Below, in pieces: positions 25,601 through 58,155 of a stretch of 64,000 nucleotides of DNA. A model generated the notes under the pieces. That model ran no database searches and was not told the DNA's origin. It saw nothing but the letters and a program-made list of their open reading frames with translations. The stretch comes from Rhododendron vialii (Eukaryota; Streptophyta; Magnoliopsida; Ericales; Ericaceae). The stretch lies in contig NC_080561.1 in NCBI RefSeq assembly GCF_030253575.1, positions 1,864,001-1,928,000 of the forward strand. Direction: 5' to 3'. How positions within the stretch are numbered: position 1 is the first letter of the stretch; each line of letters opens with the position of its first letter. The position numbers were made by a program, and so were the translations under genes.

Positions 25601-27025
25601 TATGGTTGGTGCCCAGAGGATAACCATGGACTTGAATGATGCACCTTTCAAGATCAAAGATGAACATCTCAATAGGATAAGGGCACTCTCCAAAACTGGT
25701 ATGGATACTTCATAATTATGTTTTTAGCCATTGATGGTCATATACACATATTGTTTATTAGAATTAGATTCTATATCCTAATACTGAATGAGGAAGAAGT
25801 TTTTCTTACATGGGGCATAAACTAATGACATGGGATTAGTTAACTTAATACTGGGAGATCCACATATTTTTTCCTATCCCAGTCGGATAAGGGTAGGTTT
25901 TGAGTATTAATATTGGTGGTTGGATGAATTTGTAAGATAATCTGAAGGTTGGCTTAGGTCTTGGGATTAATCCAAAGGCTAGGGAGGTGAGGTACAATGG
26001 TCTTCCATATGGGGGGGACTGTTTGCCCCAGTAGTACCAAACATATTTCAATCCCACACCCCTGGTTTGTTTAGCCAATGGGACTGGAGGACAACACCTT
26101 ACAAGGTGGACCCCCATTTGTTTTCTCCCAATCAAACAGGCCAAAATAGTGCTCAGTTGGAGAGTTTGATGTCCAAATGTGCAGTTGTATGTTAGAATCT
26201 AGAGAATGTTTCTCCAATAATTTGACTTTATGGATGCTATCAGACAAATATGGGAAAAGTTACTGGCACTGGCAGCCCAATTGTACCAAACAAGAACAAG
26301 ATATGTTGATCTCAGATACCCAATATGTGGTGTTCGGAGCAATTGGGTGGAAACTTTAGTGTCCCTGGAAAACCTGCTCAATTTGTGATAGTATGAGACA
26401 CATATTGTGCCTAGCTCCAGTGTTGATTGCTCCTGCGTTATTCAGCAACTTCATTGTGATATGATGGAAATATTTATTCATAAATGTGCACAGAAGTCAC
26501 GTACGCCTGTGTCATATGGGACCTGAAGAAAAAAAGTCTCTTTTAGATTTTGTTTTGAAATAGCATGTTTATCAGAATCTCATGACCGTCCACAATTTTT
26601 TTTTTTGATTGAGAAAACAAAATCAATTTTCATATGGTATAGTGCTTTTTTTGCTATCCAAACAAAACAAAGTTGTAATCCCATTGTGATTTGTCATCCT
26701 AACATTTGGGGAATTAAAGCGCCTTAGTTCGTGTTTAATATGAGCAGTGGAACTAGGGAAACGCTTCTTCCCTCGTTGTTCAGAAGTACTCAACAAGATG
26801 ATGGATGACGATGACTGGTCAGAACTGGCATACATACAGAACGAAACTCAAGAGGAGCGTCAACTGAAGAAGCGACGATACATGGAACTCCAAGATGTTA
26901 TTACCAAGGCATTCCACGAAGACAAAGAGGAGTTCAGTAAGTGTATCAACATACAGTCTTCATCGTCATCGACATCCATAGGAGGAGTTGGGAGGCCAAA
27001 TGGTAAACTCACTCTCAAGAAATAG
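19659..27025 (+). CDS. NPR1: NPR1-type BTB/ankyrin co-activator of salicylic-acid immunity, four exons
   Basis: A salicylic-acid receptor and transcriptional co-activator that works with TGA bZIP factors in systemic acquired resistance. Exons by eye: 19659-20183, 24157-24904, 25495-25698, 26748-27025; phases 0, 1, 1; GT-AG throughout; 1755 nt, 584 residues (Arabidopsis NPR1: 593). BTB/POZ spans about residues 60-190 with HRCILSARSPFF (Cys77), then a C2HC zinc site Cys138, Cys143, His145, Cys148. The residue aligned with the reported S-nitrosylation site Cys156 of Arabidopsis is Asp144. Ankyrin repeats span about 265-370 (DDVELVRMLLKEGHTSIDDA; NHRNLRGYTVLHIAA). The C-terminal SA-binding region follows; Arg424 in LENR should match Arg432 of Arabidopsis NPR1 (from memory). 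VELGKRFFPRCSEVL and the sequence after it are closer to NPR1 than to NPR3/4. The tail is Ser-rich and ends in LTLKK. It appears intact. Pieces of it are scattered to the right. Confidence 0.95.
20285..21640. repeat. Tandem repeats and a hAT-like insert in NPR1 intron 1
   Basis: GGATTGTAACTGTTCTATTA, followed by a GTGTTCGCTYGTTAAAAA block, appears at about 20291 and 20479, and in part at 21079. A second, longer duplication relates 20815-21040 to 21110-21640 (TTCTCATAGTTACTG; ATGAGTAAAAGCTTCATT). The second copy is split by 21158-21411, an insert with TAGGGCTGCAAAT at one end and GGATCCCTA at the other, rich in GAGCTCGA-like words. That composition resembles non-autonomous hAT elements, but I could not confirm an 8-bp target-site duplication. 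Confidence 0.6.
21790..22447 (+). mobile_element. 5'-truncated L1-type LINE tail in NPR1 intron 1
   Basis: The open frame from about 21840 to 22346 encodes residues resembling the C-terminal end of plant L1 ORF2 (LVFSVSIYHTWGERNARIYQ and a downstream DARACLSAWKNV block), the region after reverse transcriptase. It is followed by the characteristic 3' end CTTTTTGTTAATAAAATTAC and an A-rich tail at 22437-22443. AGAAGAAGTTYAG occurs near 21788 and again at 22443, a possible target-site duplication. No reverse transcriptase core remains, so the copy is dead. Confidence 0.7.
22450..24150. other. Remainder of NPR1 intron 1, nothing recognised
   Basis: AT-rich intron sequence with no exon-like frame. 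The acceptor at 24155-24156 (TTTCCTTGCAG) is well formed. Confidence 0.45.
25192..25276. mobile_element. Small hairpin (possible MITE) in NPR1 intron 2
   Basis: TAAGATCTTACTATGTAGTC followed by CACTGTCCAG pairs with CTGGACAATG followed by GGCTGCATAGTAAGATA. The length is about 85 bp. No target-site duplication was resolved. Confidence 0.5.
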
Positions 27026-27208
27026 ATGCTGATGGTTGATTTAGATGCATTTCTGCATCTTGTCCATTGTACCATAATTTTAACGTTCACCTCAATTTTC
27101 ATCTTTTGTTGTATTTAGAAAATGATTGTGGGGATTTGTTTTTCCCTTTTTCTTTATTCTTTTGAGGGATATTGGGATTTAGTCACTTCTATAGTGATAC
27201 TTGTATAT

Positions 27209-27583: not shown

Positions 27584-28256
27584 CTTGTATATATTGGTGT
27601 GTCCGTAATACACCTACAAACAAAAGGGTCAATGTGTGTGCTTGTTTATACTGGACTTGATTTCAATGTCCATCTCCTTACTCCACTCTGTCGTCTTACT
27701 TCAATCAATCTCTCTCTCTCTCGTATTCATGACCTGCAGCATACATGTCGGAACTGGGTCTGCCGTGCGCCCTAAAACGGAGCCCATCTAGAGCCTTATT
27801 AGTTTCATTCAAATAGTTTATATTTTGTTCGACTTCTTAAATTTGTTGTCCAAACAAAAAAATAGTCGTTCATGACGTGGTTGTGGTGGAGTGGTACCTT
27901 TAAGAAAATCTTCTTAACGTGCAGTAAATAAGTGTTTATGCAATCGATCGTGACCGTTCAAAATATTTTTGAACAATCAAAATGCTAATGAAATTTTTTT
28001 GAAAAAGAGTTAATTGTGACCGATTATAATTGAAAATAAATTTCAGCCATTAATTATGCGAATAGACGATTGAAATTTGTTAGTTCTGTAAAGAAACTGT
28101 TTATAACACCTCCCCAAGGAAAACATTCTCGTTGCTGTCTTTTTTCTTCCTCCAAATTCAATTTCTTCTACTTCAGAGTCTCCTCCTCCTTGGGCATATT
28201 GGGGTTTCACGCTCCAATTCGAAACTCCATCTTCCAGTCTCAGAACCAACCCAAAA

Positions 28257-29849
28257 ATGAAAGTCTCGTCTCTTCCAAATCTAAACCGCGAAACCTCCTT
28301 CCCCAATTTCTTCACCTTATTCCAACACCCTGCAGACCCCGACGACAACGACACCACCGTCAACAAGCGCCCAAAAACAAACGGCACCGAACCCTCCGAA
28401 ACGTCGCCGTTCAAAGGGATCCTCTCCACATCCCTCTCGTCCGGTGAAATGAACGAGAATCACCACCGAATTGTCGGATATTTTCCCGATTGCGATCAGA
28501 TGGACTGGCCTCCAAGTCCAAATGGGCCCGACACCAACTTTTCCGTCGGGTCAAACCCGTTCGAAGACATCCTCTGCCCATTCAACTCGTTCGATACCGA
28601 AGCCTCCGCAGCGTCGCCGTTCAAAGACATCCTCTCCCAATTGAACTCGTCCGAAGCCTCCGAAGCAATGAACGAGATCGGATTTTTAGAGGGGACGAAT
28701 TCCGTTGGGTTGATCCGTCGTGAATCGGTCCAAACCCTACCGAACACGAGTTCCGTCGGGTCAAACTGGTATAGCGGCGACGGCAGCGCAACCAGTGGTA
28801 GTGTAGGACCAAACCCTACCCAGCTGTGGTGGTGGGACCAGAGCAGCCACCCGGATTTTCCAGAATCAGAATCCCGACGCACTTTCAAGATGAGCAAGTC
28901 GACGTTTGAGTTCATATGCAGCGAGCTCGACCCAGTCATCAACAAGGATATACCGGTCCGCCAGCGCGTCGCCGTCTGCATCTGGTGGTTGTCCACCGGG
29001 GATCCCCTGCGCCTGGTCTCCAACAGATTCGGGCTAGGCATCTCCACGTGCCGTAAAGCCGTGCTAGAAGTTTGTGAAGCTATCAGGAGTGTTTTGATGA
29101 GCAAGTTTTTGAAATGGCCTGATGAGGGGAAAATGACGGAGGTCAAAAGGGAATTCGAGCTGGTTTCCGGAATTCCAAACGTGGGTGGATCCATGTATAC
29201 TACACACGTGCCTATTACTAAGCCGGAGGTGAACGGACCGGCGTATTTCAATAAGAGGCTATCGGAGAGGAACTGGAAGACGTCTTATTCGACCACGGTA
29301 CAAGGCGTTGTTGATTCGAAGGGTGTGTTTACGGACGTTTGCATCGGGTGGCCGGGGTCTATGAGCGATGACAAGATTTTGGAGAAGTCTGCGCTTTCGC
29401 AGCGCGCAAGTCGCGGGCTTTTGAAGGATGTTTGGATCGTGGGGAACGGCGGGTACCCTTTGATGGATTGGGTGTTGGTGCCTTACACGAAGCAGGACAC
29501 GTGGCGGACTACGAGGGTGTTGAATGAGAAAGTTGGGGAGATCGAGAGGGTGGTGAAGGAGGCGTTTTCGCGGTTGAAAGGGAGGTGGAGTTGCTTGCAG
29601 AAGCTGACCGAGGTGAAGCCCCTGCACTTGCCTGTGGTTTTGGGTGCTTGTTGTGTGTTGCACAACATTTGTGAGATGAGGAATGAGGCAATGGATCCGA
29701 GCGAGACGAGTTTCCATCTCTTTGATGATGAGATTGTGGCGGAGGATGCTGTGAGGTCTCTTAACGCGCTGCGAGCTAGGGATCAGATTTCTGACCTCCT
29801 TGTTCGGTTGTGGGTTCTGTTGGAAATATACGGAATGTCGGGTAAATGA
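28257..29849 (+). CDS. Domesticated PIF/Harbinger-derived nuclease-like protein, copy A (ALP1-like)
   Basis: Single-exon 530-residue protein of the plant family that includes Arabidopsis At5g12010 and At4g29780, derived from PIF/Harbinger (HARBI1) transposases. The N-terminal 200 residues are low-complexity with repeats of a PFKDIL(S/C) motif. The conserved part starts near FKMSKSTFEFICSELDPVI and includes the helix-turn-helix-like QRVAVCIWWLSTGDPLRLVS, TTHVPI, VVDSKGVFTDVCIGWPGS, GNGGYPLMDWVLVPY, LKGRWSCLQKLTEV and LGACCVLHNICEMRNEAMDP. The second acidic residue of the DDE triad is Asn here (GNGGYPL, where active transposases have DxGY), as in copies C and D, so DNA cleavage is unlikely. A few residues before IPVRQRV present in copy D are missing, and the C-terminal end after RARDQI differs from D. 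No terminal repeats or Myb-like partner ORF accompany it. Probably a host gene; related ALP1 has been tied to Polycomb function (established for ALP1, inferred here). Confidence 0.85.
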   Translation: MKVSSLPNLNRETSFPNFFTLFQHPADPDDNDTTVNKRPKTNGTEPSETSPFKGILSTSLSSGEMNENHHRIVGYFPDCDQMDWPPSPNGPDTNFSVGSNPFEDILCPFNSFDTEASAASPFKDILSQLNSSEASEAMNEIGFLEGTNSVGLIRRESVQTLPNTSSVGSNWYSGDGSATSGSVGPNPTQLWWWDQSSHPDFPESESRRTFKMSKSTFEFICSELDPVINKDIPVRQRVAVCIWWLSTGDPLRLVSNRFGLGISTCRKAVLEVCEAIRSVLMSKFLKWPDEGKMTEVKREFELVSGIPNVGGSMYTTHVPITKPEVNGPAYFNKRLSERNWKTSYSTTVQGVVDSKGVFTDVCIGWPGSMSDDKILEKSALSQRASRGLLKDVWIVGNGGYPLMDWVLVPYTKQDTWRTTRVLNEKVGEIERVVKEAFSRLKGRWSCLQKLTEVKPLHLPVVLGACCVLHNICEMRNEAMDPSETSFHLFDDEIVAEDAVRSLNALRARDQISDLLVRLWVLLEIYGMSGK

Positions 29850-31290: not shown

Positions 31291-34200
31291 AACTCCCACT
31301 AAGACTCAAAACCATACTGCCATGCATCTCACTCCCATTCCTTCTACGTGACTGTCAAAAGTCTTAGCTGGTAAGCTCTTCGTAAAAGGATCTGCCAGGT
31401 TATTCGCTGATGCAATCTTGGTCACAGCAACATCACCTCTCTGTACGATCTCTCGAATCAGATGATACTTACGCTCAATGTGTTTGCCCTTCTTGTGAGT
31501 CCTTGGCTCCTTCGAATTAGCAACTGCACCGCTATTGTCACAATAGAGTGTAATGGCTGATTGCACTGAAGGGACCACTTCCAGATCCAACAAAAAGTTT
31601 CTAAGCCAAACAGCCTCCTTGGCTGCTTCAGAAGCTGCCACATACTCTGCCTCCATGGTAGAATCAGCAATGCAAGATTGTTTGATACTCCTCCAACTTA
31701 TAGCTCCACCTCCCAAGGTAAACACATATCCTGAGGTAGACTTTCTAGAATCCCTATCTGACATGAAGTCTGAGTCTGTGTACCCATGAGGTACCAGACT
31801 ATCTGACTGGAACACCAACATATGATCTCTAGTTCTTTTCAGATACTTGAGTATATGTTTCACTGCAGTCCAATGTTCTTGCCCTGGATTAGACTGAAAT
31901 CTGCTAACCATGCCAACGGCAAAGCAAATATTAGGTCTAGTACACAACATAGCATACATAAGGCTTCCTACTGCCGAGGCATAAGGAACTGCCTTCATTT
32001 TCTCCATCTCTTCAGGTGTTTTAGGACACTAATTCTTGGATAGATTGATTCCATGTCTAAAAGGGAGGAACCCTTTCTTGGAATCTTGCATGCTAAAACG
32101 GGCTAGAATGACATCGATATAAGTAGCTTGTGATAAGCCCAACATCCTATTCTTGCGATCTCGTATAAGCTTAATCCCTAGGATGTGACCAGCTTCTCCC
32201 AAGTCCTTCATTTCGAATTGGCCGGATAACCACACTTTCACTGAAGATAACACTCTCACATCGTTTCCGATGAGCAGGATATCATCGACATATAGTACTA
32301 AAAACATTACAACTTTTCCGTTGCGCTTCTTGTACACACATGACTCATCCGGACATTGATCAAAACCAAAAGACTTGATTGCTTGATCAAAACGAATGTT
32401 CCAAGATCTAGATGTCTGCTTAAGCCCATAAATAGACTTCTTAAGCTTGCACAACATGTGCTCCTAACCTTTTGCTATGAATCCATCTGGTTGCACCATA
32501 TAGATACACTCATCCAGATTTTCATTAAGGAACGCGGTCTTTACATCCATTTGCCAAATCTCGTAATCGAGATGAGCCGCAATGGATAAGAGAATCCGAA
32601 TGGACTTAAGCATGGCTACTGGCGAAAAAGTTTCCTCATAATCGATCCCTTCTTTCTGAGTATACCCTTTCGCAACAAGCTTAGCTTTGAAGGTATGCAC
32701 CTTCCCGTCCGCCCCTCTCTTCTTCTTATAGATCCACTTGCACCCAATGGGTTTAATCCCTTCAGGTGGTTCTATAAGATCCCAGACCCGATTAGAGTAC
32801 ATAGACTCCATCTCTGATTTCATAGCCTTTTGCCAAAGTTCCACATCTTCATCTTGAAGTGCCTCATTGTAGTTACAGGGTTCAGCATGTTGATCATCAG
32901 GGATCATTTCAAAAAACTCTCCCAACAACGTATACCGACTGGGTGGAACAGTAACCCTCCCACTACGACGAGGTACCAATGTGTCAATAGGTGCCTCTAC
33001 AAATATCTCTTGTGGCATTTCCTCCTGCACTATTGGTGGTAAAGAAGTTTCTGCCGGTCTCTCTCCTCTCAATTCTTCTAGAATAATTTTACTTCTGGGT
33101 TTGTGGTCTATCACATAGTCCTCTTCTAAGAACCGGGCATTAGTGCTAACAATGACCTTCTTATTCGCAGGACTATAAAACAGTCCACCTCTCGTTCCTC
33201 TAGGGTACCCCACAAACAAAGCAAACTTCTGTTCTCGATTCCAACTTATCTGCGTTCCCATTCAGCACATGTGCTGGACTACCCCAAACCCGAACATGCT
33301 GGAGACTAGGTTTGCGCCCAATCCATAGTTCTGTGGGTGTAGATGGTACTGACTTAGATGGTACCAAGTTAAGAATATACGCTGCTGTTTCTAGTGCATG
33401 TCCCCAAAACGAAATTGGTAAATCTGAATAACTCATCATTGATCTTACCATATCCATAAGAGTCCTATTCCTTCTCTCTGCTACACCATTTTGTTGTGGC
33501 ATACCTGGAGCTGACAATTGGGATGTAATCCCTTCAGCTGACAAGTAGTCCCTAAACTCTCCCAAGACGTATTCACCACCACGATCAGATCGTAGTCTTG
33601 AGACATTTACCCAAACGCTTTTCCGTTTCCGCCCTATACTCCCTGAATTTCTCAAAGCATTCGGACTTACGGTGCATCAAATAAATGCATCCATACCTTG
33701 AGTAATCGTCAATAAAAGTGACAAAGTACTCAAAATCACCTCTAGCTTGGATATTCATAGGCCCACACAAATCAGAGTGAACCAATTCTAACGGCTCTTT
33801 GGCTCTATATCCTTTTGCTGAAAAAGGCCTTTTGGTCATCTTACCTTCCAAACATGATTCACAGACTGGAAGTTCCTTAACTTCTAATGAACCTAAAGGT
33901 CCATCTTTAACCAGTCTAGAAATCTTATTCAGATTAATATGACCAAGATGTAAGTGCCAAAGATACGTTTGGTTCAATTTCGAAGGCTCTTTTCTCTTGC
34001 ATGGTAAATTATTAGTGTTATTCAATTCATGCAGTTGCACTGTAGGAAATATAGGATTTATAATGTAGAGATCATCCACCAATGAACCAGAACAGATAAA
34101 ACGTTTATTTAACTTAATAACCACAGAGTCACTAAAATAAACCAAATATCCATCCTTTATTAACTTAGAAACTGAAACCAAGTTTCTTCTAATAGTAGGA

Positions 34201-35262
34201 ACATAAAGACAATCTCTCAAAATTAAACTCCTATTACTACTAAAATTAAAAAAAATATTTCCTACTGCAACTGCTGCCACTCTCGTAGCATTTCCCATAT
34301 GTAGATAAATCTCTTCATCACTGAGTCTTCTGGTTTTCTGGAACCCCTGCAATGAATTGCAAACATGATTAGTGGCTCCCGTATCTACACACCAGGTACT
34401 GGTAGATAACACCGCTAAACATGATTCAACAACTAGTGAAAAAGATTTAACTTGTTTGTTCACTTTATTGAGAAAAACCGGACATTCCTTCTTCCAGTGT
34501 CCTTTCTGCTTGCAGTGAAAACAGTTGCCCGTAGGCTTTTTCACTCCACCTTGAGGCGCATAAACTGCCTCCACAACCTTTTTCTGAGACTTATTCTGCT
34601 TCTTCTTGCCTTTCGGCTTAGAAGTAGAAGCCTTCTCAGCCACTAGCACTGATGGTGGTTTCTTCGCAACCAAAAGACCCTCAGCTGCTTGGAGTTCCTT
34701 AAGAAGTTCCGCCAAAGATAAATGCATTTTGTTCATAGAATAAGTCAGGCGAAACTGCTTAAAACTCTCAGACTGCAGTGAGTTGAGAACGAAATCGATC
34801 TGGGTTTCCCCATCAATTTCAGCTCCAAGGATCTCTAGTTCATTAAGAAGAGCTATCATCTTTAGAACATGATCCCTAACCGGGGTCCCTTCAACATGGG
34901 TGATGCTCACCAATTCTTTCATAGCAACTAGTCTTGCTGCCGGATTCTGATCCCCAAACATTTCTTTGAGGTTCAGCATCATATCAGAAGCAGTTTCCAT
35001 AGCTTGATGCTGATGTTGCAATATATTCGACATAGAAGCCAAAATATAACACCGCGCCATCTCATCAGCCTTAACCCAATCTTTATAAGGCTTTGCTTCC
35101 TGTTCTGTGGCATTTTCTTCAGGTATAGGAGGGCACGCCGTAGTAAGCACATATTTGTGGCCCTCAGCAGTTAACACAATATTCAAGTTTCTTTTCCAGT
35201 CAACATAATTTGGTCCAGTAAGTTTATTTTCTTTGAGTTGAGTGCTTGTAACTTCTCCAAAT
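29998..35262 (-). mobile_element. Ty1/Copia LTR retrotransposon, broken, one LTR recognised
   Basis: It reads on the minus strand. The LTR at the left end is 29998-31290 (TG...CA, about 1.29 kb) with a polypurine tract GTGGGAG next to it. Parts from right to left: gag about 34600-35260, zinc knuckle about 34490-34530, protease with DTGATNH about 34370, integrase about 33250-34000, reverse transcriptase with YVDDILL about 32100-32800, RNase H about 31390-31800. The order protease, integrase, RT, RNase H is diagnostic of Copia. The other LTR is not found; host-like flank resumes by about 35283. It is broken, with several interruptions in the coding region. ATAAC at 29993-29997 and 35263-35267 might be a target duplication but is weak. 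Middle-aged by appearance; no LTR pair is available for dating. Confidence 0.9.
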
Positions 35263-35282
35263 ATAACTTATATTCATGTTTT

Positions 35283-37339: not shown

Positions 37340-38990
37340 CTTGGATACTTCACAATTATGTTTTTCGCCATTCATGAACATATACACATATTGTGTATTA
37401 GAATTAGATTCTGTGGAAAATTACAATACACATCCCTTATTTGATTGTGTATCATATGCACCATTCAAAATGTTATGAATTATAGAGAAAATGTTACGAA
37501 TCATATTGCTAAAAAATTACGAATCATATAAAGGTTACGAGATACAATAGTCTTCCACATGGGAGGACTGTTTGCCCCAGTAGTCCCAAACATAATCCAA
37601 TCCCACACCCCTTGTTTGTTTAGCCATTGAGCCAGGGGACAACACCTTACAAGGTGGACCCCATTTGTTTTCTCCAAATCAAAACAGGCCAAAATAGTGC
37701 TCAGTTGTAGAGTTTGATGTCCAAATGTGCAGTTGTATGTTACTACCTCCGTCCCAGAATGTTTGTCAGATCCGTAAAACGACAACTCAAAAATAATGCA
37801 CTTTTTTCAAAAAAAAATTCAAACTTTTTTCATAAATTAAAAGAACTCATCGATATTTAGTGAATTGTTAAAAAAAATTAAAATTTTCTTACAAAAAATA
37901 TATTATTTTTCCGTTTTCGTTTTGCAGATTAAACAAATATTATGAGATGTGGAGTAGAATCTAGAGAATGTTTCTCCAATAATTTGACTTTATGGATGCT
38001 ATCGGACAAATACGGGAAAAGTTACTGGCACTGGCAGCCCAATTGTACCAAACAAGAACAAGATATGTTGATCTCAGATACCCAATATGTGGTGTTCGGA
38101 GCAATTGGGTGGAAACTTTTAGCGTCCCTGGAAAACCTGCTCAATTTGCGATTGTATGAGACACATATTGTGCCTAGCATGTTTGTCAGAATTTGTTTTA
38201 GATTTTGTTTTGAAATAGCATGTTTGTCAGAATTTCATGACTGTCCACAATATTTTTTTTTTTGATTGAGAAAACAAAATCAAATTTCATATGGTATAGT
38301 GCTTTTTTGGCTATCCGAACAAAACAAAGTTGTAATCCCATTGTGATTTGTCATCCTAACATTTGGGGAATTAAAGCGCCTTAGTTTGTGTTTAATATGA
38401 GCAGTGGAACTGGGGAAACGCTTCTTTCCTCGTTGTTCAGAAGTGCTCAACAAGATGATGGATGACGATGACCGGTCAGAACTGGCATACATACAGAACG
38501 AAACTCAAAAAGAGCGTCAACTGAATAAGCGACAATACATGGAACTCCAAGATGTTATTACCAAGGCATTCCACGAAGACAAAGAGGAGTTCAGTAAGTG
38601 TATCAACATACAGTCTTCATCTTCATCGACATCCATAGGAGGGGTTGGGAGGCCGAATGGTAAACTCACTCTCAAAAAATAGATGCTGACGGTTGATTTA
38701 GATGCGGAAATGCATCTTGTCCATTGTGCCATAATTTTGATGTTCACCTCAATTTTAATCTTTTGTTTCATTTAGAAAATGATTGTGGGGAATTGTTTTC
38801 CCCTTTTTCTTTATTATTTTGAGGAATTGCGGGATATAATCACTTCTATAGTGATACTTGTATATATTGGTGTATCTTTAATACACCTACAAACAAAAGG
38901 GTCAATGTGTGTGCTTGTTATACAGGACTTGATCCTTCCTTCAATCTGTCGTCTTACTTCTCTCTCTCTCTCTCTCTCCATTGAACCTTC
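37340..38990 (+). pseudogene. Truncated NPR1 duplicate: last exon plus intron 3 and 3' flank
   Basis: Sequence from about 37340 (GGATACTTCAYAATTATGTTT) matches NPR1 from the end of exon 3 at about 25705 through intron 3, exon 4 and 1 kb of 3' flank. The exon-4 copy is 38405-38682. It keeps the acceptor and an open frame of 92 codons, with a few substitutions relative to NPR1 (for example DDDR for DDDW, LNKRQ for LKKRR). No BTB, ankyrin or exon-3 sequence precedes it, so it cannot encode a working NPR1. Part of intron 3 is missing and a Stowaway-like MITE is inserted. The paralogous space without the 27209-27583 MITE is visible here. Confidence 0.88.
37744..37954. mobile_element. Stowaway-like MITE, 211 bp
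   Basis: The left end CTACCTCCGTCCCAGAATG matches the Stowaway/mariner consensus. The right end is a diverged complement. TA flanks both sides (37742-37743 and 37955-37956), and the paralogous empty site in NPR1 intron 3 (about 26189-26200) reads GTATGTTAGAATCTAGAG. It inserted after the duplication. Confidence 0.85.
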
Positions 38991-39156
38991 TCTTCCTCCC
39001 CCTAATTTCCTCGAAACACATATATTTTTTCCCTCACATACCTTTCCCTCCCTCTTTCTCTAACTAAAATCCTCTCTCCACCCCCAAGGAAACTCCCAAA
39101 CCCTTTCTCAGAACCAGCTCATAGACCTAAGGCGTCTCTCCCAAAATCTCAACTCA
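38950..39156 (+). pseudogene. NPR1 5'-leader and exon-1 fragment
   Basis: A (CT)n leader with CCCCCTAATTTCCTCGAAAC is like the NPR1 leader at 19515-19640. It is followed by TCAGAACCAGCTCATAGACC, then TAAGGCGTCTCTCCCAAAATC (39103-39156). The latter is a diverged version of the NPR1 exon-1 segment encoding SEPEIVALRHLSRNLDS (about 19757-19808). It is short and non-functional. Confidence 0.7.
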
Positions 39157-39164: not shown

Positions 39165-39965
39165 CGTTAAAGTTTTTATTTTTTACAGCAAGTACTTATT
39201 TTTATTTTATAAAGCAGGTCACTCTCTCATAATATATTACCTCTAATTCAAGAGGATTGACCCAGATTTATTTTTCCGAACCGAACTTCCTGTATCTAAG
39301 AGCATCCGCACCAGTCTTACCAAATTTTGGACCAAATTAGAGAGGAAAAAGCTTCTTTATTATTTTAACTACTCATTTTTAAAATTCCTACTGCATCAAA
39401 CTCTCTGTATTAAAACTATCCCATTAAAAATATTAATTTCTTTATTAAAAAAAAGAAAAAGCAACGGAGTATTAAAAAAACAGCAGCTATCCCACCGCGC
39501 ACACACTCTCTCTCACTTTACTCTTTGTAAAAACCAGCAAACAAAAGTTTTTACAAAACCCAAACTGTACCAACACTGACCTCACCCACAAATTCCGACC
39601 AGTGGATCAAAGATGGCCTGTTGCCAGCGTCGACCGCAAGATCCAACCACAAATTCTGACAAGTCGATCAAAGAAGGTCCGTTGCCGGAGTCAAAGGTGT
39701 GTAGACCAAGCCCAAGCCGTCGGTGAAGGTTTGAACAAAGTTTGAATTGAAAACATTAATTAATGTTTAACCTGTGAACAGTTCCTCCTCTTCTTCCACG
39801 AGGGACTGTAGCAATGTTAGTTTGATGCCAAGCAGAGGCGAGGCTGATGCAAGACCATTTTCTTCCTTTGGCTGATTACTATAGTGCCAGATAAGAAGTG
39901 GCGACACTGATGTTAATGTGGATGTTCTAACACTTACGATCAACCATTGTGGGGTCTTAAAGGTG
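39165..39965. other. MITE remnants and spacer upstream of the fusion gene
   Basis: 39165-39300 resembles the MITE at 1207-1345 (AAGTACTTATTT; CACTCTCTCATAATATATTA). At 39299 AGAGCATCCGCACCAGTC begins another common MITE-type end. The rest to 39965 shows no recognised gene. ATCAACCATTGTGG near 39939 and the following T-run with GTTTGTTTCGGCAATGA are shared with the upstream regions of copies C and D, so the promoter of the Harbinger-derived gene is retained here. Confidence 0.5.
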
Positions 39966-40081
39966 TTTTTTTTTTTGTTTGTTTGTTTCGGCAATGACAG
40001 ACGGATTGGAAACTTTACTCTCTCTCTCTCTCTCTATGAAGGTGGGCATGCAATTTCGAAGTCGGTGGATTGGTAACTTTA

Positions 40082-40121: not shown

Positions 40122-40214
40122 TTCTGACTTCTCCTCCTCCTGGTTTCGTTTCACAATCCAATTCGAAACTCCCTCTTCCAGTCAGAAAAAGTATTTCGAA
40201 AACCAAACCCAAAA

Positions 40215-42730
40215 ATGAAAGTCTCGTCTCTTCCAAATCTCAACCGCGAAACTACCTCCTTTCCCAATTTCTTCACCTTATTCCAACACCCTGCAGACCA
40301 CCACCTCCACGACACCGCCCTTCAAATAGGTGAGCACAGCTGCGACACCGAAGCCTCCGAAACGTCGCCGTACAAAGCGATCCTCTCCCCATCCGTGTCG
40401 TTCGACCAAACGAACGAGATCGGATTTCCGGCGGGGACGAGTTCCGTCGGGATGTTCCGTAGTGAATCTGAACACAATGACCGCACCCGACCGAACTCGG
40501 TTTCTGTCGGGTCAAACCAATTTGGCGGTTCAGAATGGCCAAACCTACCCAGTTGTGGTGGGACCTGTGCAACCTCCCCGATTTCCCAGGAGACCATTGA
40601 GCAACCATTTAGTCCTCTATGCCCAACCAAACGAGCCTTTACCCAAATCCACACTTTTCAATTTCCAGAAATCAAAGAAACAACGATGACAAAAGCCGGC
40701 ACGAGCAAACGTTCCCGGAGCGAAACACCGGCACCTTTGCCACCTTTTTCTAAGGTACACTATTATGCTAGTCATTTGGTATTGTTTTCGTTTTCTTCGT
40801 TCTCATTTTTTGGTGTTTTCGAAAGCAAAAAGCACGAAAAGTTTTGAAATTGTTCGGTAAAGTTGTCAATTTTTTGAGTTTTATTTATTTATTAAAAAAA
40901 TTAAACGAAAAACAAGAAATGGTTTTTATTTATTTATTAAAAAATAAAAAATAAATTTGATGATCATAATAGTTTTTGTTTTTTTATCGAAAGTGTTTTC
41001 AAAACTTTGTAAACGAAAGGGTTTTATGTATTTTGTAAACAGTAACACAAACATATTTATGGTGCTTATTTCAAAAAATATCAGAAACAAAAACAAAAAA
41101 CTCGAAAGAAAATCTTTTCCAAACAGAGCCTTATCATTGTTTTGATGATTTCTATGTTTTTTTTTTTTTTTGGGAAATGAAAACGAGCTAAACTGGAATC
41201 GAAATTGATTAATGTCTTGGAGAATTGTGAAGTTGTAGATTTGTGGTTATAGGTTAGGAAAGAAAAGACTGGGGACAAAATCACAGCTCTCCAAGAACTG
41301 GTTTCCCCTTTCGGAAAGGTAATACAATTACTTCATACTACTTGCTTTCACAAAACTGAGCGATGATTTTCTTGATGAATTCTTGAAGTTAATCATATTA
41401 TACATATTAATCTATGTTTTTGTATCTTTCAGACTGATACAGTTTCAGTGCTCAGTGAAGCAATTGATTACATCAAGTTCCTCCACGAACAAGTTAATGT
41501 AAGTACCATTAGAACTTACCCAAAAAAAAAAATGTAAGTACCATTAGAATCACCTTAATATTTTGCAACCAAATTCACAAGAAGTTCATTCATTTCCAAA
41601 CGAAATAATAAAGGGAAGTGTTAAAATACCCACCTCTATTTTGATGTGTCGTATTGACTTTAAAGTCTCAATACTTATAAAAAAATTCATAAGATTTGCA
41701 TCGGCATCCATAACGATTGCACAAAATTACACAATATCAAGAATAAAGCGCATAACATAACGATGTTATGAATTAAACCTTGGTGTAATGAATTCAAAAT
41801 TGATGATGTGAATTTATATTAGAATCTTTGGAATTTTAACATAATTTAAGGCTTGCATCCAATTATGGACTGTGTATTGTTACTGTTGTAGTATGTACTT
41901 TTCTTTTCTTTTTTTTTGCTCGGCACTGTTGTAGTATGTACTTGGAAAATGTATCAATATAAACCATTTTTGATCGATGCTTTACTTGTTCGTTTTGATT
42001 AATTTCTCAGGTTTTAAGTATCCCATTCATGAAAAGGGGAGCTTCCATGCAACTCCAGCAGGTAGAAGTACTCTCTTTCTTCCTTCTGATGTGCATGGTA
42101 TTTGACTTCTGAAAACCTTGAAGCGAGTCGAGTGACCTTGAGTTGCATAAAATCAACACCTTCCAGATCATTTTGAGTTTTACATATATTTGGAAGAAAT
42201 GCTCCATACGTACCTTATATTTGGGGGTGTACAATATACACCCCTGATATATTGTATAGAAATTGGTAACATTTGGATATAAATTCGTAACATCAATCTT
42301 GAATTCATAACTTTTTTATAAGTTCATAACATCAACACAAAGTCACAGTATCAACTTTGAATACATAACATTTTGAGGTTACGAATTTTTATCTTGATGC
42401 TGAGAATTTTGACCTCAATGTTGTGAACTTCTTTGCAAATCTTATGAATTTCAATACCTTTTTTTTTTAATTGGATTTGTAATGTAGCACTTTTCTATAT
42501 TTGGAATCATTTACCTCTATAAAACAGACGAAGTGCTCCATAGTTTCCTAATTCTTTCGAAATTGGTCATAAAGCATCTTTTAATGCAGAATCCTGGCAA
42601 ATCAAAGGAAGATGAAGGACCGAAGCAAGATCTCAGAAGCAAAGGGCTGTGTTTGATGCCCTTTCCGAACTCCCAACCTACAGATTTAGAGGTATCAATA
42701 GAAGCCATCAACATTAGGACATGGGACTGA
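40215..42730 (+). CDS. Chimeric gene: Harbinger-derived N-terminus fused to a bHLH transcription factor
   Basis: Five exons by eye: 40215-40754, 41253-41318, 41433-41498, 42011-42061, 42590-42730. All junctions are phase 0 and GT-AG, giving 864 nt, 287 residues. The start and the first 125 or so residues (MKVSSLPNLNRETTSFPN to GSNQFGG) are a copy of the N-terminal low-complexity region of the ALP1-like genes at 28257 and 58338. The DDE region is absent. The same frame then runs into SKRSRSETPAPLPPF and, across the introns, KVRKEKTGDKITALQELVSP, TDTVSVLSEAIDYIKFLHEQ and EGPKQDLRSKGLCLMP. This is the bHLH domain and C-terminal signature of the plant subfamily of AtbHLH112/113/123-type factors, whose basic region lacks the usual E-box residues. 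The usual DFW...FG tail is replaced by VSIEAINIRTWD. Expression is unproven; a pseudogene or a separate downstream start is possible. Confidence 0.7.
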
Positions 42731-42736
42731 TTCGCA

Positions 42737-42900
42737 AACAGAGGAGTTCAGTAAGTGTATCAACATACCGTCTTCGTCTTCATCGAATCGTCCTGGGACC
42801 TCTCACATCTTTCTCAGAACCAGAAATCGTAGACCTAAGGCGCCTCTCCAAAAACCTCGACTCAATTTTCAACTTAGACTCCGGCTTTTTTTCCATTTGA
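42737..42900 (+). pseudogene. Two NPR1 fragments joined side by side
   Basis: 42737-42786 matches the NPR1 exon-4 piece GAGGAGTTCAGTAAGTGTAT onward (encoding EEFSKCINI and the Ser run). 42811-42900 matches the NPR1 exon-1 piece encoding SEPEIVxLRxLSxNLDSI, followed by a stop. In NPR1 these parts are about 7 kb apart and in the opposite order, so they were brought together by rearrangement right behind the bHLH stop codon. Confidence 0.8.
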
Positions 42901-43099
42901 ATCGTCCTGGGACATTGGTTGCGTAGACTAATGCTGAAATGTGGTTATGTTTCGAATTTGTTTTCCTCCCCGGATGCCACATTCTTAGTTTATTGGTTTC
43001 ACTTTCCAGGCTTATTTATTTTTCAGCTTTTTCTAGTTTCTTCTAGGTCCCAGCGACTCCTGTTCTGTTACAAATTCAAGTTGGTAGATCTACTTTTTG

Positions 43100-43385
43100 G
43101 ATGATGCTATGGTATTTCCTGTCATTTTGGAGACACCATAATTTTTGACATAACTTAACAATTATGATCATAATTAAAACTCATTACAAGCATAATAGAA
43201 TCCAAACAAGGCATAACCTTGGTTGGGTTTGGTTATGCCTTGATTGGTTTTTTTGGATATTTCTTGGTTATGTCTTATTTGAATCATGCTATGTTTGTAG
43301 TGGGTTTTGGTTGTACTCATAATGGTTTTGTTATGTCAAAAGTTACGGTGTCTCCAAAATGACTGGGGACACCGAAGTCATTCCC
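43100..43385. mobile_element. MITE with GTCATTTTGGAGACACC ends
   Basis: The left end GTCATTTTGGAGACACC followed by ATAATTTTTGACATAAC pairs with the right end GTTATGTCAAAAGTTACGG followed by TGTCTCCAAAATGAC, and pairing continues outward into GGTGTCCCC. Inside, GGCATAACC and GGTTATGCC also pair. The exact ends and target duplication are not resolved. Confidence 0.7.
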
Positions 43386-43497
43386 CTACTTTGATATTAG
43401 GAAAATCAAAACTCAAGTTTTTCATTGTGTACCTTTTGAGTAATTACTTTAGTTATTCCATGAAAGCAAAATTAATGGAAGCAAAACCTTAATTTAA

Positions 43498-44109
43498 GAG
43501 AATTGATAATGCTAACACTTTTTTTTGTTCCTGCCAAAATCTTTTTTATTCCCGTCAAAATTCAATGTTTATCTTTTATTGTATGACTTAATTGTCCTTC
43601 ATTACACTACTTGCTTAACGAAAATGCCCCTTAAAATCCCTAGGAGTATTTTAACTTCTTTTGGCATTTCCTCAAATCGATGGTATTGATTCCGAACACA
43701 AACCCATGTGGGAAATCAGCTCGGCTAATTGATTCTGAGTTCACAAACAGAAGAGGAATTAAGGAGAGAGAAAGAAAGAAAAAAAAAAAAACACTTACCC
43801 AAAAAAATTTAAGGAGAAAAAGATGGGAAATGATTGTCGTGATAAGGGGATTAATTCGGGGGAGAATTTCCAATCAAGGGAGCTTTTTGATGGGTTTTTC
43901 TTTGTGGAGTTTGGTAATCTATTTCTGGTATTCTCTAACAAAAAAAAGTTGAAGCTATGGAATGCCAAAAATAACGGTAAAATACTCGAGGGATTTTAAG
44001 GGGTATTTTCGTAAAGCAAGTGGTGTATTAGAGGGCAATTAAGTCATGCAATGAAAGATAAATATTGATTTTTGGCAGGAACAAAAATGGTTTTGACATT
44101 ATCAGTTCC
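43498..44109. mobile_element. 612-bp Mutator-like element with long TIRs and a unique centre
   Basis: The terminal inverted repeats are about 170 bp (GATAATGYYAAMAC, TTGTTCCTGCCAAAA, ATGACTTAATTG, AAAATCCC, TTTTGGCATTCC) and flank a centre of about 260 bp. TTAATTTAA (43489-43497) and CTAATTTAA (44110-44118) are a near-perfect 9-bp target duplication. The centre (about 43690-43930) has a different base composition and a short open frame, as in Pack-MULEs that carry captured host DNA, but I recognise no source gene. Confidence 0.75.
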
Positions 44110-44241
44110 CTAATTTAAAAGACATTACTAAAAAAATGGAATGAATCTCCAATAGTCATAGGAAATTAGATGAACACAATCCAACCGCTAAAAAATAGAC
44201 ATTTGATGTGGCTCGAGAACTAACCGTGGAAGCCCCAAAAG

Positions 44242-44736
44242 TAGGCCTGTCAATGGACCGGATCTAATCCGGATCCGATCCGAAAAATCCGATCCGGATC
44301 CGGATCCGATAAAGTCGATCCGATAATCCGAATCCGGTAATTCAATACGGATCCGGATCGGATCGGATTAAATCCGTTATCAATCCGAATCCGAACTTTA
44401 TTTTTAAAATTTTTTTAAATTTTTTTTAAAAATAGTAATTTTTTTTTTAAAAAAAAAAATGTTTAAGAAGTTGTATTTTTATTTTTTAATTTTTTTCGGA
44501 AAATATATATATTTTTTAAATTGTATTTTTTGAATTTTTTTTTTTTTTTGCTAAAATTTTTGAAGTAAAAAAAGTTTCCGGATCGGATTCGGATTTTCGG
44601 ATCGGATCCAGATTTTTCGGATTCGGATTTTTCGGATTCAGATCCGGATTACCACTATCGGATTTGAGTCTTATTGGATCCGAATCGAATTAGGTCTTAT
44701 CGGATCCGGATCGAATCCGGTCCATTGACAGGCCTA
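44242..44736. mobile_element. hAT-like element built of GGATCCGGAT repeats
   Basis: The ends TAGGCCTGTCAATGGACCGG and its complement are flanked by CCCAAAAG (44234-44241) and CTCAAAAG (44737-44744), an 8-bp duplication with one mismatch. The subterminal regions are dense in GATCCG/CGGATC words in opposite orientation, and the middle is almost pure A/T. No transposase. Such subterminal arrays are typical of hAT binding sites. Confidence 0.78.
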
Positions 44737-44744
44737 CTCAAAAG

Positions 44745-46420
44745 TAGTTCAATTCACACTGTCCCTTTCGCATGACAACTGGTAGCATCTTGACTTGGAA
44801 ATAATATGAAACTACTAGTATTACCATGAGGCCTGTTACGGTACGGAAAAGAAGAAATTAAATAGTCATCCTGTTTGATAGACTTATTTAATTGCTCATT
44901 CTATTAGATTTAAATACTTAAGTTGACATTCTAAATTTTAAATAATACCAAAAACACCCTCTACTAATATTGACCCCTATATTATTTTTTAATATTATAT
45001 AGATCATTTTGGGATTTACGCAGGACTAATCTTTTGAAATTACTAGACCATGATCCCGTCCTCATTCCGAAAATTCCTCATCATCTTATACCCACCTCAG
45101 GATTGAACATATCCATTACACCATATAATCAGGAAAAAAGCTCCGAGAAAAAAACCCAAACAATATCGTCGACAGTGAATAGATTGAGAAGAATGGCGAT
45201 CCGCCGGAGCACCCACCAACAATATCGTCCGCCGCCGTTGCTTGACAATCCATGCTCGCCGCCGGCCTGTCTCTCTCCTCCGCCTCGGACACCCACCTTC
45301 CTCTCTCACTCCTTCTCCTCTAGCCGCCATCGCTGCTCGACAATCCTTGCTCGCCGCCGGCCTGTCTCCCCAATTAATCCTTCTCCTCTAGTCGCCGTCG
45401 CCGCTACCGCGATTCCAGATTCAAGCTTAGAATGGCGATGTGCTTTACCCCACCTTTAACTCCGGCGTTCCATGCTCAGATCGATCCATTGCAGCGGAGA
45501 AGGGATACCGCCACAAAAGCGCTACCCACTCTCGTGTTCTCCTCTCGAGCAAGCTGAGTTTGAGATGCACCAAATTGATGCACTGTGGTTGAACATTGAT
45601 TTAGTACAATCAAAAAGAAGTAGGAATGTGGTGCGTACCTATATGATTTCTGTTTATTGTAGTTTCATCGGAACGATTTTATGATACGTGTTCATGATTA
45701 TGGTGATTTCACAAATTTTATCATAATTTCGGAATGTGTGTTTCAGTTTTTCCGAATTTTGTCATTATTTCGGTTTAGTGTAGTTTCGTGGGCACAATTT
45801 TACAATATATATTCATGATATTTTTTGTTTCATGGTGATTTCATAAATTTTGTCATGATTTTCAGTATGAGTGTTTCGATTTCTCCAAATTTTGTCATCA
45901 TTTTCGTAGGAACGATTTTATGATACATATTCATGACAAAATCATTGAGAATTTCAAGTAATATATCCTGAAAATTTATGGTAATATTTTTACGAATATA
46001 CGTTCTTGTTTATGAATATTCATTTTCAAGTTTGGTAGATGTTAGTTTTATTTTGAAAAGTTGTTTTTTGATTTTAGGTGAGAGAAAATTTGAGAGAGAA
46101 GATTATGAGAGAAAAAGAGAATGAGAGAAATTAGGAAAGATAAGGAGAGTGAAAAATTATAAAGATTAGGAGAGAGAAAGGGTATTTTAGGATTTATTTG
46201 AATTTGAGGATGGAAAGATAAGTTTTTAAACCCACTAGGATGAGGACTTAAGTATTTATATAGGAAAGGACCCCTATTTAAGTTCCCCTACAGAAAATTC
46301 GGTCCAGAAAAATATCGAAAAAAAAAATAAACGGTCCAGATTTTTCTAAACCGAGTTTCCTCCAATTCAACTTCTGACACTTTTGATTAACCATTGTTGT
46401 CATCCTAACTTTAGGCTCCC
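44745..46420. other. Spacer with a short GC-rich coding-like piece and tandem repeats
   Basis: 45180-45460 is GC-rich and repeats itself (GACAATCCWTGCTCGCCGCC followed by GGCCTGTCTC at 45243 and 45339). Its open frame 45034-45459 has no known motif; it may be the dead 5' end of a gene or captured DNA. 45655-45960 holds about two and a half copies of a repeat of roughly 120 bp (GGAACGATTTTATGATACRT; CACAAATTTTGTCAT; TGTTTCRRTTTYTCC). Nothing else was recognised. Confidence 0.45.
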
Positions 46421-46429
46421 TTCCACTTT

Positions 46430-46640
46430 CTTCAAAAAATTTCTTTTTCAAAAAAAAGTAATTTCAAACTCAAATAAGTATAATAAAAATGAAAAATAAT
46501 TTTTTGATTATTTTAGCACCATTTAAAAGATTTTAATAAGACTTATTAAACAAGATCTATATTGGTAAAAAAATTATTTGCGTAAATACATAATTTTTGA
46601 TCTTAAAATTATATTTTTTTTGAAAAAAGAAAGTTTACAT
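46430..46640. mobile_element. MITE in the promoter of copy C
   Basis: Terminal pieces TTTTTCAAAAAAAAGTAATT and AATTATATTTTTTTTGAAAAAAG pair. The core TTATTAAACAAGATCTATAT with TATTTGCGTAAATACATAAT is shared with 3150-3335. The corresponding upstream sequence of copy D (about 58000-58090) lacks it, so it inserted after the duplication. Confidence 0.55.
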
Positions 46641-46851
46641 AAAAGCTGGAATGGCCTAAGTTTCTTTTGTTTGTTTTCACAATGAAAGACTTTCAGAGTT
46701 TGGAGAGAAGAACGGTCCATAAAGGTGGGCAGTTTTGTGGAGGGAGTGGTGTAACCCCTCTCTCTCTGTCTGTTTCCTCCAATTCAACTTCTTCTGATTG
46801 TCTTCCTAGGGCTCTTACAGTCAGAAAGTATTTCGAAAACAAAACCCAAAA

Positions 46852-48214
46852 ATGAAAGCCTCGTCTCTTCCAAATCTCAACCGCGAAACCACCTCCTTCC
46901 CCATTTCTTCACCTTCATCCAAGACCCTGCAGATCGCGACGACACCACCCTCAACCTGCGCCCAAATAATGACCATGGCAACGACACCGAAGCCTCTGAA
47001 ACGTCGCCGTTCAATGACATCCTTTCCCATCCGTCTCGTTCGGTGAAATGAACGAGATCAGATTTTTCGCGGGAACGAATTCCGTTGGGTTGATCCGTGG
47101 TGAATCGGTCCAAACCCAACATAACACGAGTTCCGTCGGGTCAAACCAGTTTAGCGGCGGCTGCAGCAGCGCAACCAGTGGTAGTGTAGGACCAAACCCT
47201 GCCCAGCTGCGGTGGTGGGACAAGTGCGGCCACCCGGATTTTCCAGAGTCAGAATTCCGACGCGCTTTCAAGATGAGCAAGTCCACGTTCGAGTTCATAT
47301 GCAGCGATCTCGACCCGGTCATCAACAACAAGGACACCAAGCGCGTCGCGGTCTGCATCTGGTGGTTGGCCACAGGGGAGCTCCTGCGCCTGGTCTCCCA
47401 GAAATTCGGGCTAGGCATCTCCACGTGCCGTGAACTCGTACTTGAAGTTTGTGGGGCTATTTGGAGTGTTTTGATGAGCAAGTTTTTGAACTGGCCTGAT
47501 GAGGAGAAAATGACGAAGGTAAAATGGGAATTTGGGCTGATTTCCAGGATTCCAAACGTGGGTGGATCCATATATACTACGCACGTTCCTATTATTGAGC
47601 CGGAGGTGAACGCACCGGCTTATTTCAATAAGAGGCACACGGAGAGGAGCCAGAAGATGTCACATTCGATCACGGTACAAGGCGTTGTTGATTCGAAGGG
47701 GGTGTTCACGGACGTTTGTATCGTGTTTCCGGGGTCTATGAGTGATGACAAGATTTTGGAGAATTCGGCCATTTCGCAGTGGGCGAGTGGCGGGTTTTTG
47801 AAGGATGTTTGGATTGTGGGGAATTCTGGGTACCCGTTAATGGATTGGGTGTTGGTTCCTTATGCACATAAGCCTTTGATAGGGATTGGTCACGAGTTTA
47901 TCGAGAAAGCTGGGAAGATTCAGAGGGTGGCGAATGAGGCGTTTTTGCGGTTGAAAGGGAGGTGGAGTTGATTGCAGAAGAGGACCGAGGTGAAGCTCCA
48001 GGACTTGCCTGCGGTTGTTGGTGCTGCTTGTGTGTTGCACAACATTTGTGAGATGAGGAATGAGGCAATGGATCCGAGCGAGATGCGTTTCCATCTCTTT
48101 GATGATGAGATTGTGCCGGAGAATGCTGTGAGGTCTGTTGACGCGATGCGAGCTAGGGATCAGATTGCTCTCCGTTTGTTTAACCATAGATTTGCAGCCA
48201 CCGGTCTTCAATAA
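46852..48214 (+). pseudogene. PIF/Harbinger-derived ALP1-like pseudogene, copy C
   Basis: It is a copy of the gene at 28257 and 58338. It starts with ATG and MKASSLPNLNRETTSFP, then loses frame near 46898 where the N-terminal CCCCAATTTC of the other copies is CCCCATTTC. The conserved region is open from 47048 (MNEIRFFAGTNSVG) through FKMSKSTFEFICSDLDPVI, VVDSKGVFTDVCIVFPGS and GNSGYPLMDWVLVPY. A TGA then replaces the Cys codon in the RWSCLQK motif at about 47970. After it the frame goes on to VGAACVLHNICEMRNEAMDP and NHRFAATGLQ. The DNYTMLRLA-like stretch before the helix-turn-helix is shortened. The catalytic-site Asn is the same as in A and D. Probably not functional. Confidence 0.85.
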
Positions 48215-50104: not shown

Positions 50105-52550
50105 CATTAGCCATTTCCTTGACTAATTTGGACACACAAAACCAGTCCCAGTTAATTACCAGAGAATTTTGCTGGCAAATATATGCAGAACAAATCAACA
50201 CTTTGAAGTTCAAACCCCACTTGTAGAGAGCTGGACTGGAGAGGGCTTTGGGCTTGGCAAATGGGCTTAGCTTAGCTACGTACGACCCATACACCGCGTA
50301 CTTGGACAAAACCAGGTTACGATTGAGCTGATACACTATTTATGGGTTGGAGGCATGAAACTCGTGAGCCCAATCCCCATGGAAGTGCGGTTTCAAAACC
50401 TGGCGGTTAAACCAAACCAGTTTATACCGGGCTTGATTTCAATACGGGCTCTGCATTTGAGGTTACTTATATCAGAATTGGACGCATAATCAAATACTTG
50501 GCTGTGTTTGGATCCTATATTTCTCAGGTGGAAGAAAGGGAAACGGATATTATTGGAAACGAAAGACGAAAGACTCGTGCTCCGTCGTTGGACACATGAG
50601 AGGAGAATTCTAATACTTATATATTTGGAAAATAGATCAGTTTTTTTTTTTTTGGTTTAGTTTTCCCTAAGATAAATCCAGTGTATTAGTACTAACTAAA
50701 TCCTTTTCGCAAATCTGAGATTTTGACATAGTATTATCATAGATGGGTGCATTGGCGGAGCTATGTTGGGGTTCGGGGTGGCCCTGGCCCCCCGGATGCC
50801 CTCCGAGCTCTCGAGTCTTAAATTTTATTTTGTATATACGTGATTTTGATAATTATTCGTGTATAAATACATATAATCTTAATAATTTTTGTTTGATTTG
50901 ATAAAAAACGGTTATTTTACATTTTCATTTCTCAATCTGTTGAAGTTGCCTAAACAAAAAAAACAAAATAATTGGTATATTTTAACTGTATTAGGCTATA
51001 ATTATTTCAATGTACAAATGTAATGTATTAAAAAAATATGATATAATAAGTATACGTTCGGATAAAAAAATATATGTTTATTAATTTGACCCCCGTGTCA
51101 TAATCCTGGCTCTGCCACTAGATGGGTGTCATCCCAAGTTGTCCTTGGAAGAAAAAAAAAAAAAAAAACTACCTACTTGATTGCTTGCTTCCTTTATAGA
51201 ATTACGTAAGAGAGTAAAATATATATAAACTTATGCCTTTGATGTTTACACTGGGTTTAATTGTTTATAAAGGAATTTAATATTTGTGAGCTTTTTGTCC
51301 CAAAAGGATCAAATTAAAATATTTTATTGGTTTAACACCATTTTTCGATTGAAGTGTAAAAGTATGCGAAGACCGTATTAAACAAACAATAGTATCAGGC
51401 ATTATTGCTCTTTAGCATCATCCCCAACTTCATCATATTATTAATTATAATATGATATTTTCCTCAAAAGGAAAACCTCCACCTATATTCAGTCCCTAAA
51501 AATACAAGTACGTATAGAGATGGGAACTAACCCAAATGATGAAAAGCCAATATTAGAAGTTTTGATTGGTAGCTTCAGATAAAGACGGTAGTTTTGATTG
51601 GTAGCTTCAGTACAAAAGGGACGGCTTTAGGGGTGGGGACTAAATTGACACAAATTTTAAACGTTGGGGACGAAATTAATCACTTACTAATACTTTGGGG
51701 ACCAAAAAAGTAAATAAACTTTTGGTATAGGATGGTATTTTGAGAAATACGGAATACAATGCTGGAATACAATGCTGAGTGCCCCACTCTGTTGCCGGTA
51801 CGGTATTTAATTTGATCTCATGTGTGGAGAATTTGATTTCATGAAGGTTTTTGTTAACGGGGAAACAAAGAAAATAAAATATGATATAACTAATGCTTAT
51901 CTTTTTTCTTGTTCTTTTTTTATTACACAAGTTACTTGGAAAATTAAGAAGACATTTAATATTTTATGGGTCTCATATTGTTTGGTCATGTATGGGGATT
52001 TCGATGAGGATAAATATTTTTTTCCAAAATATAATATTGGACAAGTAATATGAGATGGAAGAGTATACGTGGAGGGGTATATGTTTTCCCAAACATTCAT
52101 TTTGAACTGGTGGTGGCTATTTATTTCCACAACAGCCAAAAACAAGTCATTACCACTAAGCTGCTTTAGATTAAGACATGTTTGGTGGAGATTAATAGCT
52201 ACTAATTACGCTTTAGATGTGTCCTTTATCATGAAAGTCAATAGCTAATCAATTTTGCACCTCGTCCATTGTTTCTTTTGGAAAGAAAAATCCAGAGCTG
52301 AAACCCTACTCGTACAAAAATAGCAAGGGACCATATTATAAGGGACACATGTTTGAACACCGATGGGATTTGTTTGAGCTTTCTTGGGAAAACACCTTTT
52401 CTAGCTTCACAAAACATAGTATGTTAATTAATTGATGAAAAGGGGCACGCTCTCTCCTCTTTCTCTAATCACATGGGGCAGCTCAAGTCAAGTGGCAACA
52501 GAATGAGTCGTAAATTCAGAAATTCTAAGTTTTAAATTTGACAATTTAAT
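50105..52550. repeat. 2.4-kb segmental duplicate, unit behind copy C
   Basis: It matches 59950-62525 with only scattered differences, including GGACACACAAAACCAGTCCC, GTACTTGGACAAAACCAGG and TGGGTCTCATATTG. Open frames here are mirrored in both copies without protein-level constraint, so I regard them as non-coding. The match ends at CAATTTAATTAA (52543-52554). Confidence 0.85.
50750..51119. mobile_element. MITE with GGCGGAGC/GCTCTGCC ends, in unit behind copy C
   Basis: AGATGGGTG flanks both sides (50741-50749 and 51120-51128). Ends are TTGGCGGAGCTATG and CCTGGCTCTGCCACT. The same insertion occurs at 60565-60939, so it predates the duplication. The 8-9-bp duplication allows hAT or Mutator origin. 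Confidence 0.75.
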
Positions 52551-52727
52551 TAAAGGCCAGGCCACAATAAAGAAAATTGCTTGTGAATCTCTTACTCCTA
52601 GCGTAAATGCTCTATCTTTGACTGGAGCGGAGAGAAAAATGATTGAGAAACGCGAAAATTAGCTATAAAACGCCCCTTATCATCGACAAAAAAAAAAAAT
52701 GGTAAGAAGCTATCCAGTTTGTCATAT

Positions 52728-57960: not shown

Positions 57961-58155
57961 GTGTTAAGGATCTTATAAATGAATGGTCAAGGTTCATTTT
58001 TCTGGACTGAGTTTCAGCCGACACTTTTAATTGTGATTAACCATTGTGGGCATCATAAAGTTTTTTTTTTGTTTGTTTCCGCAATGAAAGACTTTGAGAA
58101 TGTTTAATCCCTCTTCCAGTCGGAAAATACTACTGTATCGAAAACCAACCCAAAA

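Follow-up and report, generated by a model that had tools for sequence, protein, structure and literature searches.

According to the excerpted text of PMC4671723, ALP1 and ALP1-like genes are domesticated PIF/Harbinger transposases of land plants. Transposase-capture fusion genes join a host domain to transposase-derived gene sequence, and plant chimeric genes from captured fragments, as presented in the excerpt of PMC13317346, unite unrelated gene pieces and keep their introns. Both fusions of transposase-derived with host sequence and captured-fragment chimeras are known kinds. A fusion of an ALP1-like gene with a bHLH gene was found in none of the titles or abstract openings among the literature matches listed, a collection that covers few subscription-journal papers. 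We describe such a locus in a 64,000-nucleotide stretch of Rhododendron vialii DNA (hereafter, the window), where ALP1-like and bHLH pieces are joined within one reading frame and NPR sequence lies beside them. The leader and the first 110 codons match local ALP1-like copies bearing DDE_Tnp_4, but unlike the genes in the excerpt of PMC4671723 the fusion is devoid of the DDE part; the local copies possibly fall into a different ALP1-like clade. In contrast to transposase-capture fusions, the contribution here is the N-terminal region of a domesticated-type gene, without DDE and without a demonstrated transposase DNA-binding domain, and in contrast to the captured-fragment chimeras in the excerpt of PMC13317346, no element ends were found at the edges of the bHLH piece.

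The chimeric locus (40215-42730, forward strand) comprises five exons separated by four phase-0 GT-AG introns and reads through 287 codons without a stop, so that two unrelated gene sources share one open frame under splicing predicted from the sequence. This exon structure, already proposed in a preliminary description of the locus, was reproduced by translation of the predicted splicing. Introns of 498, 114, 512, and 528 nt have a GC content of 0.25-0.32, and the exons one of 0.38-0.52. Exon 1 was open in 2 of 5000 base shuffles (fraction 0.0004) and the bHLH part in none of 5000, a comparison that excludes random sequence as the source of the frame, says nothing on its use, and does not model descent from a gene. 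The chimeric locus with its fully open joint frame is real at the level of the DNA. Introns 3 and 4 also carry inverted AT-rich repeats (41683-41819 and 42277-42451), with a likeness of 71% in one block and 86% in another. Rfam returned no matches at gathering scores.

Table 1. Positions of the fusion gene parts and of adjoining NPR sequence within the window.
Feature	Position	Strand	Description
Partial NPR 3' part, upstream	37539..38865	+	Duplicate of 25989-27208; NPR1_like_C at 38401-38679
5' leader (putative 5' UTR)	40148..40214	+	Common to copies A, C, and D; blastn self-comparison, alignments
Exon 1, first part	40215..40544	+	110 codons, homology to ALP1-like N-terminus, ALP1 frame
Exon 1, middle	40545..40591	+	ALP1-derived DNA, WWDxCxxPDFP block, out of ALP1 frame (alignments)
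Exon 1, last part	40592..40754	+	Precedes HLH; ALP1 homology not found; in-frame internal ATG 40686
Exon 2	41253..41318	+	Short basic segment and helix 1 (VRKEKTGDKITALQELVSPFGK)
Exon 3	41433..41498	+	Helix 2 (TDTVSVLSEAIDYIKFLHEQVN)
Exon 4	42011..42061	+	Spliced-frame translation
Exon 5 and stop codon	42590..42730	+	Spliced-frame translation; encodes C-terminal tail
NPR last-exon fragment	42740..42786	+	47 nt, 95.7% to 38583-38629; right flank of bHLH piece
NPR first-exon fragment	42802..42894	+	84% to 19757-19826 over 70 nt

Besides the fusion copy (B), the window harbors ALP1-like copies at 28257 (A), 46852 (C), and 58156 and 58338 (D, whose 5' end is doubled and is referred to as D1 and D2). 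In blastn self-comparison, the N-terminus of the fusion aligns to copy D (58336-58642) with 82.9% identity over 316 columns, to copy C (46812-47157) with 78.3% over 360 columns, and to copy A with 79.5% over 273 columns (28204-28458) and 72.3% over 184 columns (28592-28766); a second alignment to copy D (58108-58327) has 88.9% identity over 225 columns. Over codons 1-20, copies B, D2, and A differ at third positions only. The leader match to copies C and D starts at 40170-40173, and copy D additionally matches sequence upstream of the fusion at 38862-39057 (90%, by its own upstream segment 57719-57919) and at 39938-40025 (74%). These blocks, spanning 72.3-88.9% identity, confirm the proposed N-terminal likeness to the local ALP1-like genes; the promoter-side match that had been ascribed to copies C and D holds for the leader and extends to copy A; chimerism and an ALP1-type leader are both supported by blastn and alignments. 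Pfam recognizes DDE_Tnp_4 at 103 bits in copy A, 70 bits in copy C, and 114 bits in copy D, with no match in the fusion, and tblastn with copies A and D found no DDE remnant in 40592-46811 at E values up to 1, in agreement with the loss of the DDE part noted in the preliminary description. The 5' end of copy D is doubled head to tail (58154-58519, 94.6% over 184 columns), copy C (46852-48211) is pseudogene-like, its N-terminus being frameshifted and its frame interrupted by a stop at 47969-47971, and the regions downstream of copies C and D (50125-52553 and 59953-62529) are 91-93% identical, constituting a segmental duplication.

The left junction, where ALP1-derived DNA ends, lies at ~40591. 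Alignments show that ALP1 homology extends past the last in-frame match up to this point, through the DNA of the WWDQCSHPDFP block, in which copy B carries a 1-nt deletion followed by one of 3 nt; the indels of copy B upstream of 40545 preserve the frame. As a consequence, the last 47 nt of ALP1-derived DNA are read outside the ALP1 frame as 15 shifted codons. The ALP1 frame of copy B would read KPTQLWWDLCNLPDFPGDH and then meet a stop (40598-40600) shortly after entering the bHLH piece, whereas the fused frame over the same stretch reads LPSCGGTCATSPISQ. Since the ALP1 frame ends just past the join and the shifted frame stays open, the joint open frame depends on the 1-nt deletion. What had been described as an in-frame fusion is hence one open frame, but the join is not clean and the frame is held only via this deletion. 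A 5-bp AGGAG present at both junctions was set aside, as two sequences of such lengths should, by hand estimate, have about one 5-mer in common.

The last part of exon 1 may be the native segment in front of a basic region ("pre-bHLH"), as in sequences of the plant family, and the bHLH part may likewise be of bHLH112 type (group X). Motif strings of the bHLH112 type had no match in the literature text. Pfam detects an HLH (PF00010) at residues 188-220 with 16.9 bits (E 0.0055), below the gathering cut-off of 20.7, and the best PDB matches are chains of SREBP-1a, MYC2, and SREBP-2 (E 0.05, 0.15, and 0.15), which are weak on their own; a fourth PDB match (E 0.83) is unrelated. Plant bHLH112-type proteins (group X in PMC5558667, AtbHLH112 in PMC8267941, AhbHLH112 in PMC8594184) would share the order seen here, with the HLH after a short basic segment; the fusion differs in having four introns against the six given for AhbHLH112 in the excerpt of PMC8594184, in a Thr for the usual Leu/Ile, and in its C-terminal tail. 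E/G-box binders make contacts via His/Lys-9, Glu-13, and Arg-17, and Ile-20 is among the conserved bHLH residues (PMC5558667, excerpt). In the ungapped MYC2 alignment, numbered as in that excerpt, Glu-13 is replaced by Ser and Arg-17 by Lys in the fusion, position 9 is Leu when the reported alignment is extended without gaps, and position 20 in helix 1 is Thr, where MYC2 has Leu and Leu/Ile is usual. The canonical contact residues are thus absent, and by the residue rule in the excerpt of PMC5558667 the predicted HLH is of non-E-box type; the fusion protein would therefore be able at most to dimerise via its HLH. Within the window, blastn with the bHLH piece (40592-42735) yielded only short AT-rich intron matches. 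Among pattern matches in collections that hold viral and prokaryotic contigs and no plants, a parental bHLH gene was confirmed in none of 5 viral and none of 50 prokaryotic cases, and over all patterns bHLH or ALP1 relatives amounted to 0/5 and 0/2 on viral and 0/17 and 0/50 on prokaryotic contigs; given what these collections contain, such negatives carry little weight.

On both sides, the bHLH piece is bordered by sequence of an NPR/ALP1 array. NPR remnants begin nine bases past the bHLH stop codon, and tblastn over 40592-46811 gave 42814-42894 (E 1e-6) for NPR exon 1 and 42741-42767 (E 0.014) for the C-terminus of NPR, with one more match at chance level; NPR-type sequence is also found upstream of ALP1-B (38196-38865 and 39069-39155). 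NPR1_like_C is a plant family, and by its NPR1-like gene the window is regarded as nuclear DNA of a plant. The NPR-like gene at 19626-27208 has BTB, ankyrin, and NPR1_like_C matches in its scanned exons, the partial second copy listed in Table 1 is 91-97% like it in matched blocks, and the fragments at 39069-39155 and 42740-42894 are as in a decayed tandem array. Other elements of the window include two MITE-like inverted repeats to the right of the fusion (43111-43373 and 43532-44098) and a copia-type retroelement on the reverse strand (31306-35267) with gag, zinc knuckle, and pre-integrase matches in 33588-35267, to which the frame 31309-32028, without a Pfam match at 0.01, was assigned by eye; two open frames (11333-11656 and 12427-12804) are alike, both with a DVKAPN-type motif and without a Pfam match at 0.01.

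With ALP1 sequence to its left and NPR sequence from 42740 to its right, the bHLH piece looks like an island within the array and is read as the incomer: most likely this piece landed in the array, and arrival of the array at a resident bHLH gene is the less likely order. The best explanation as a whole, to which we assign a probability of roughly 0.6, is that the chimeric locus arose when a bHLH piece joined ALP1-B in a decaying array. A plant bHLH gene piece of ~2.1 kb would have moved with its introns, whose retention argues against a passage via processed mRNA, into the decaying NPR/ALP1 tandem array and been joined at the DNA level to ALP1-like copy B by non-homologous rearrangement or break repair, replacing the DDE part of that copy and coming to lie between ALP1-B and NPR remnants. 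The preliminary description had favored the opposite route, in which a segmental duplication of the array landed upstream of or inside a resident bHLH gene. This would equally produce the left junction, but NPR fragments nine bases past the stop leave no resident bHLH flank at the right, and with array sequence on both flanks we consider this route improbable. Still less probable is capture of the piece by a Pack-MULE or Helitron. Such elements take gene pieces, some as expressed chimeric transcripts in the excerpt of PMC13317346, and the kept introns would fit, yet the left flank is array sequence and the nearer edges of the piece show no terminal inverted repeats of the kind that flank a Pack-MULE (comparing 40560-40700 with 42641-42780 gave a local score of 7, which 471 of 500 shuffles reached, the shuffle mean being 8.0), nor were Helitron end signatures seen by eye at the junctions. 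Tandem arrays are easily misassembled; however, the ALP1-derived part differs by 11-28% from the other window copies in the compared blocks and has indels of its own, which makes an assembly artefact very unlikely.

A gene formed by the entry of a bHLH piece into the array would rely on the leader and promoter of an ALP1-type gene; its transcript, if made, would encode 110 ALP1 codons, 15 frame-shifted codons of ALP1 DNA, and the bHLH-derived exons, giving a 287-aa protein without a transposase domain and capable at most of HLH dimerisation. Comparison of the ALP1-derived part, suggested earlier as a check of the fused portion, gave a weak and mixed signal: dN/dS is 0.44 for B-D2 (Fisher p 0.012 for synonymous versus nonsynonymous rates, on rounded counts), but 0.82 for B-A and 1.17 for D2-A over the same region. 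Across the 107 codons common to the three copies, copy B alone carries 11 synonymous and 24 nonsynonymous changes, which is near neutral. A neutral simulation of the B branch (parsimony ancestor, 111 codons, 14 synonymous and 25 nonsynonymous changes, 20000 runs) left no stop with a frequency of 0.37 and reached at least 14 synonymous changes with 0.063, and both together with 0.026. The signal is at best suggestive. The ALP1-derived part may be under some constraint, which would favor a working protein but could, at least partly, be older than the fusion. Among the DDE parts of copies A, C, and D, dN/dS is 0.48-0.62.

Whether the product is used can be weighed on these grounds. That the locus encodes a functional regulator, transcribed from the ALP1-type promoter into a 287-aa HLH protein that has a new N-terminus and modulates other bHLH factors, would accord with the intact frame and splice sites, the frame-keeping indels of copy B before 40545, the third-position differences in the first 20 codons, the B-D2 ratio, and the joint simulation value. 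Against it stand the B-A and D2-A ratios, the near-neutral B-only changes, the separate simulation values for synonymous count and for absence of stops, the sub-threshold HLH, the Thr in helix 1, and a constraint that may predate the fusion; we regard this as doubtful. A non-functional chimera, consisting of chance-joined gene fragments in a decaying array that mutation has yet to break, has about even odds. The decay of ALP1-C, the partial state of NPR copy B, the dN/dS among the DDE parts, and the weak selection signal all speak for it, whereas neutral DNA of great age is unlikely to keep 287 codons open and four introns intact, and shuffled sequences almost never stay open, though they do not model gene descent. 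Translation could also start at the internal ATG within the bHLH piece, leaving the ALP1-derived stretch as leader only: this ATG is in frame, seven codons upstream of KRSRSETPAPLPP, and the middle part of exon 1 has no ancestral protein frame, but ATG 40215 is common to the ALP1 copies in the same leader context and no stop separates it from 40686, and we rate this as rather improbable. On balance, a product that is little used or unused, for which the chances are about equal either way, is likelier than a full-length working regulator. The chimeric locus is most likely a by-product of array rearrangement with no established role. That it yields a working HLH partner protein is unlikely, and slightly more so is the specific form of a new plant regulator in which promoter and N-terminus of a domesticated Harbinger transposase gene were added to an HLH domain lacking E-box contacts, giving an HLH partner protein under ALP1-type control, with the frame-setting 1-nt deletion kept by selection.

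If not expressed, the locus would be one of many gene-fragment mosaics in plant genomes. If expressed, it would represent a datable gene birth by the joining of unrelated gene pieces inside a tandem array, in which one step, the single-base deletion opening the joint frame, would be visible.
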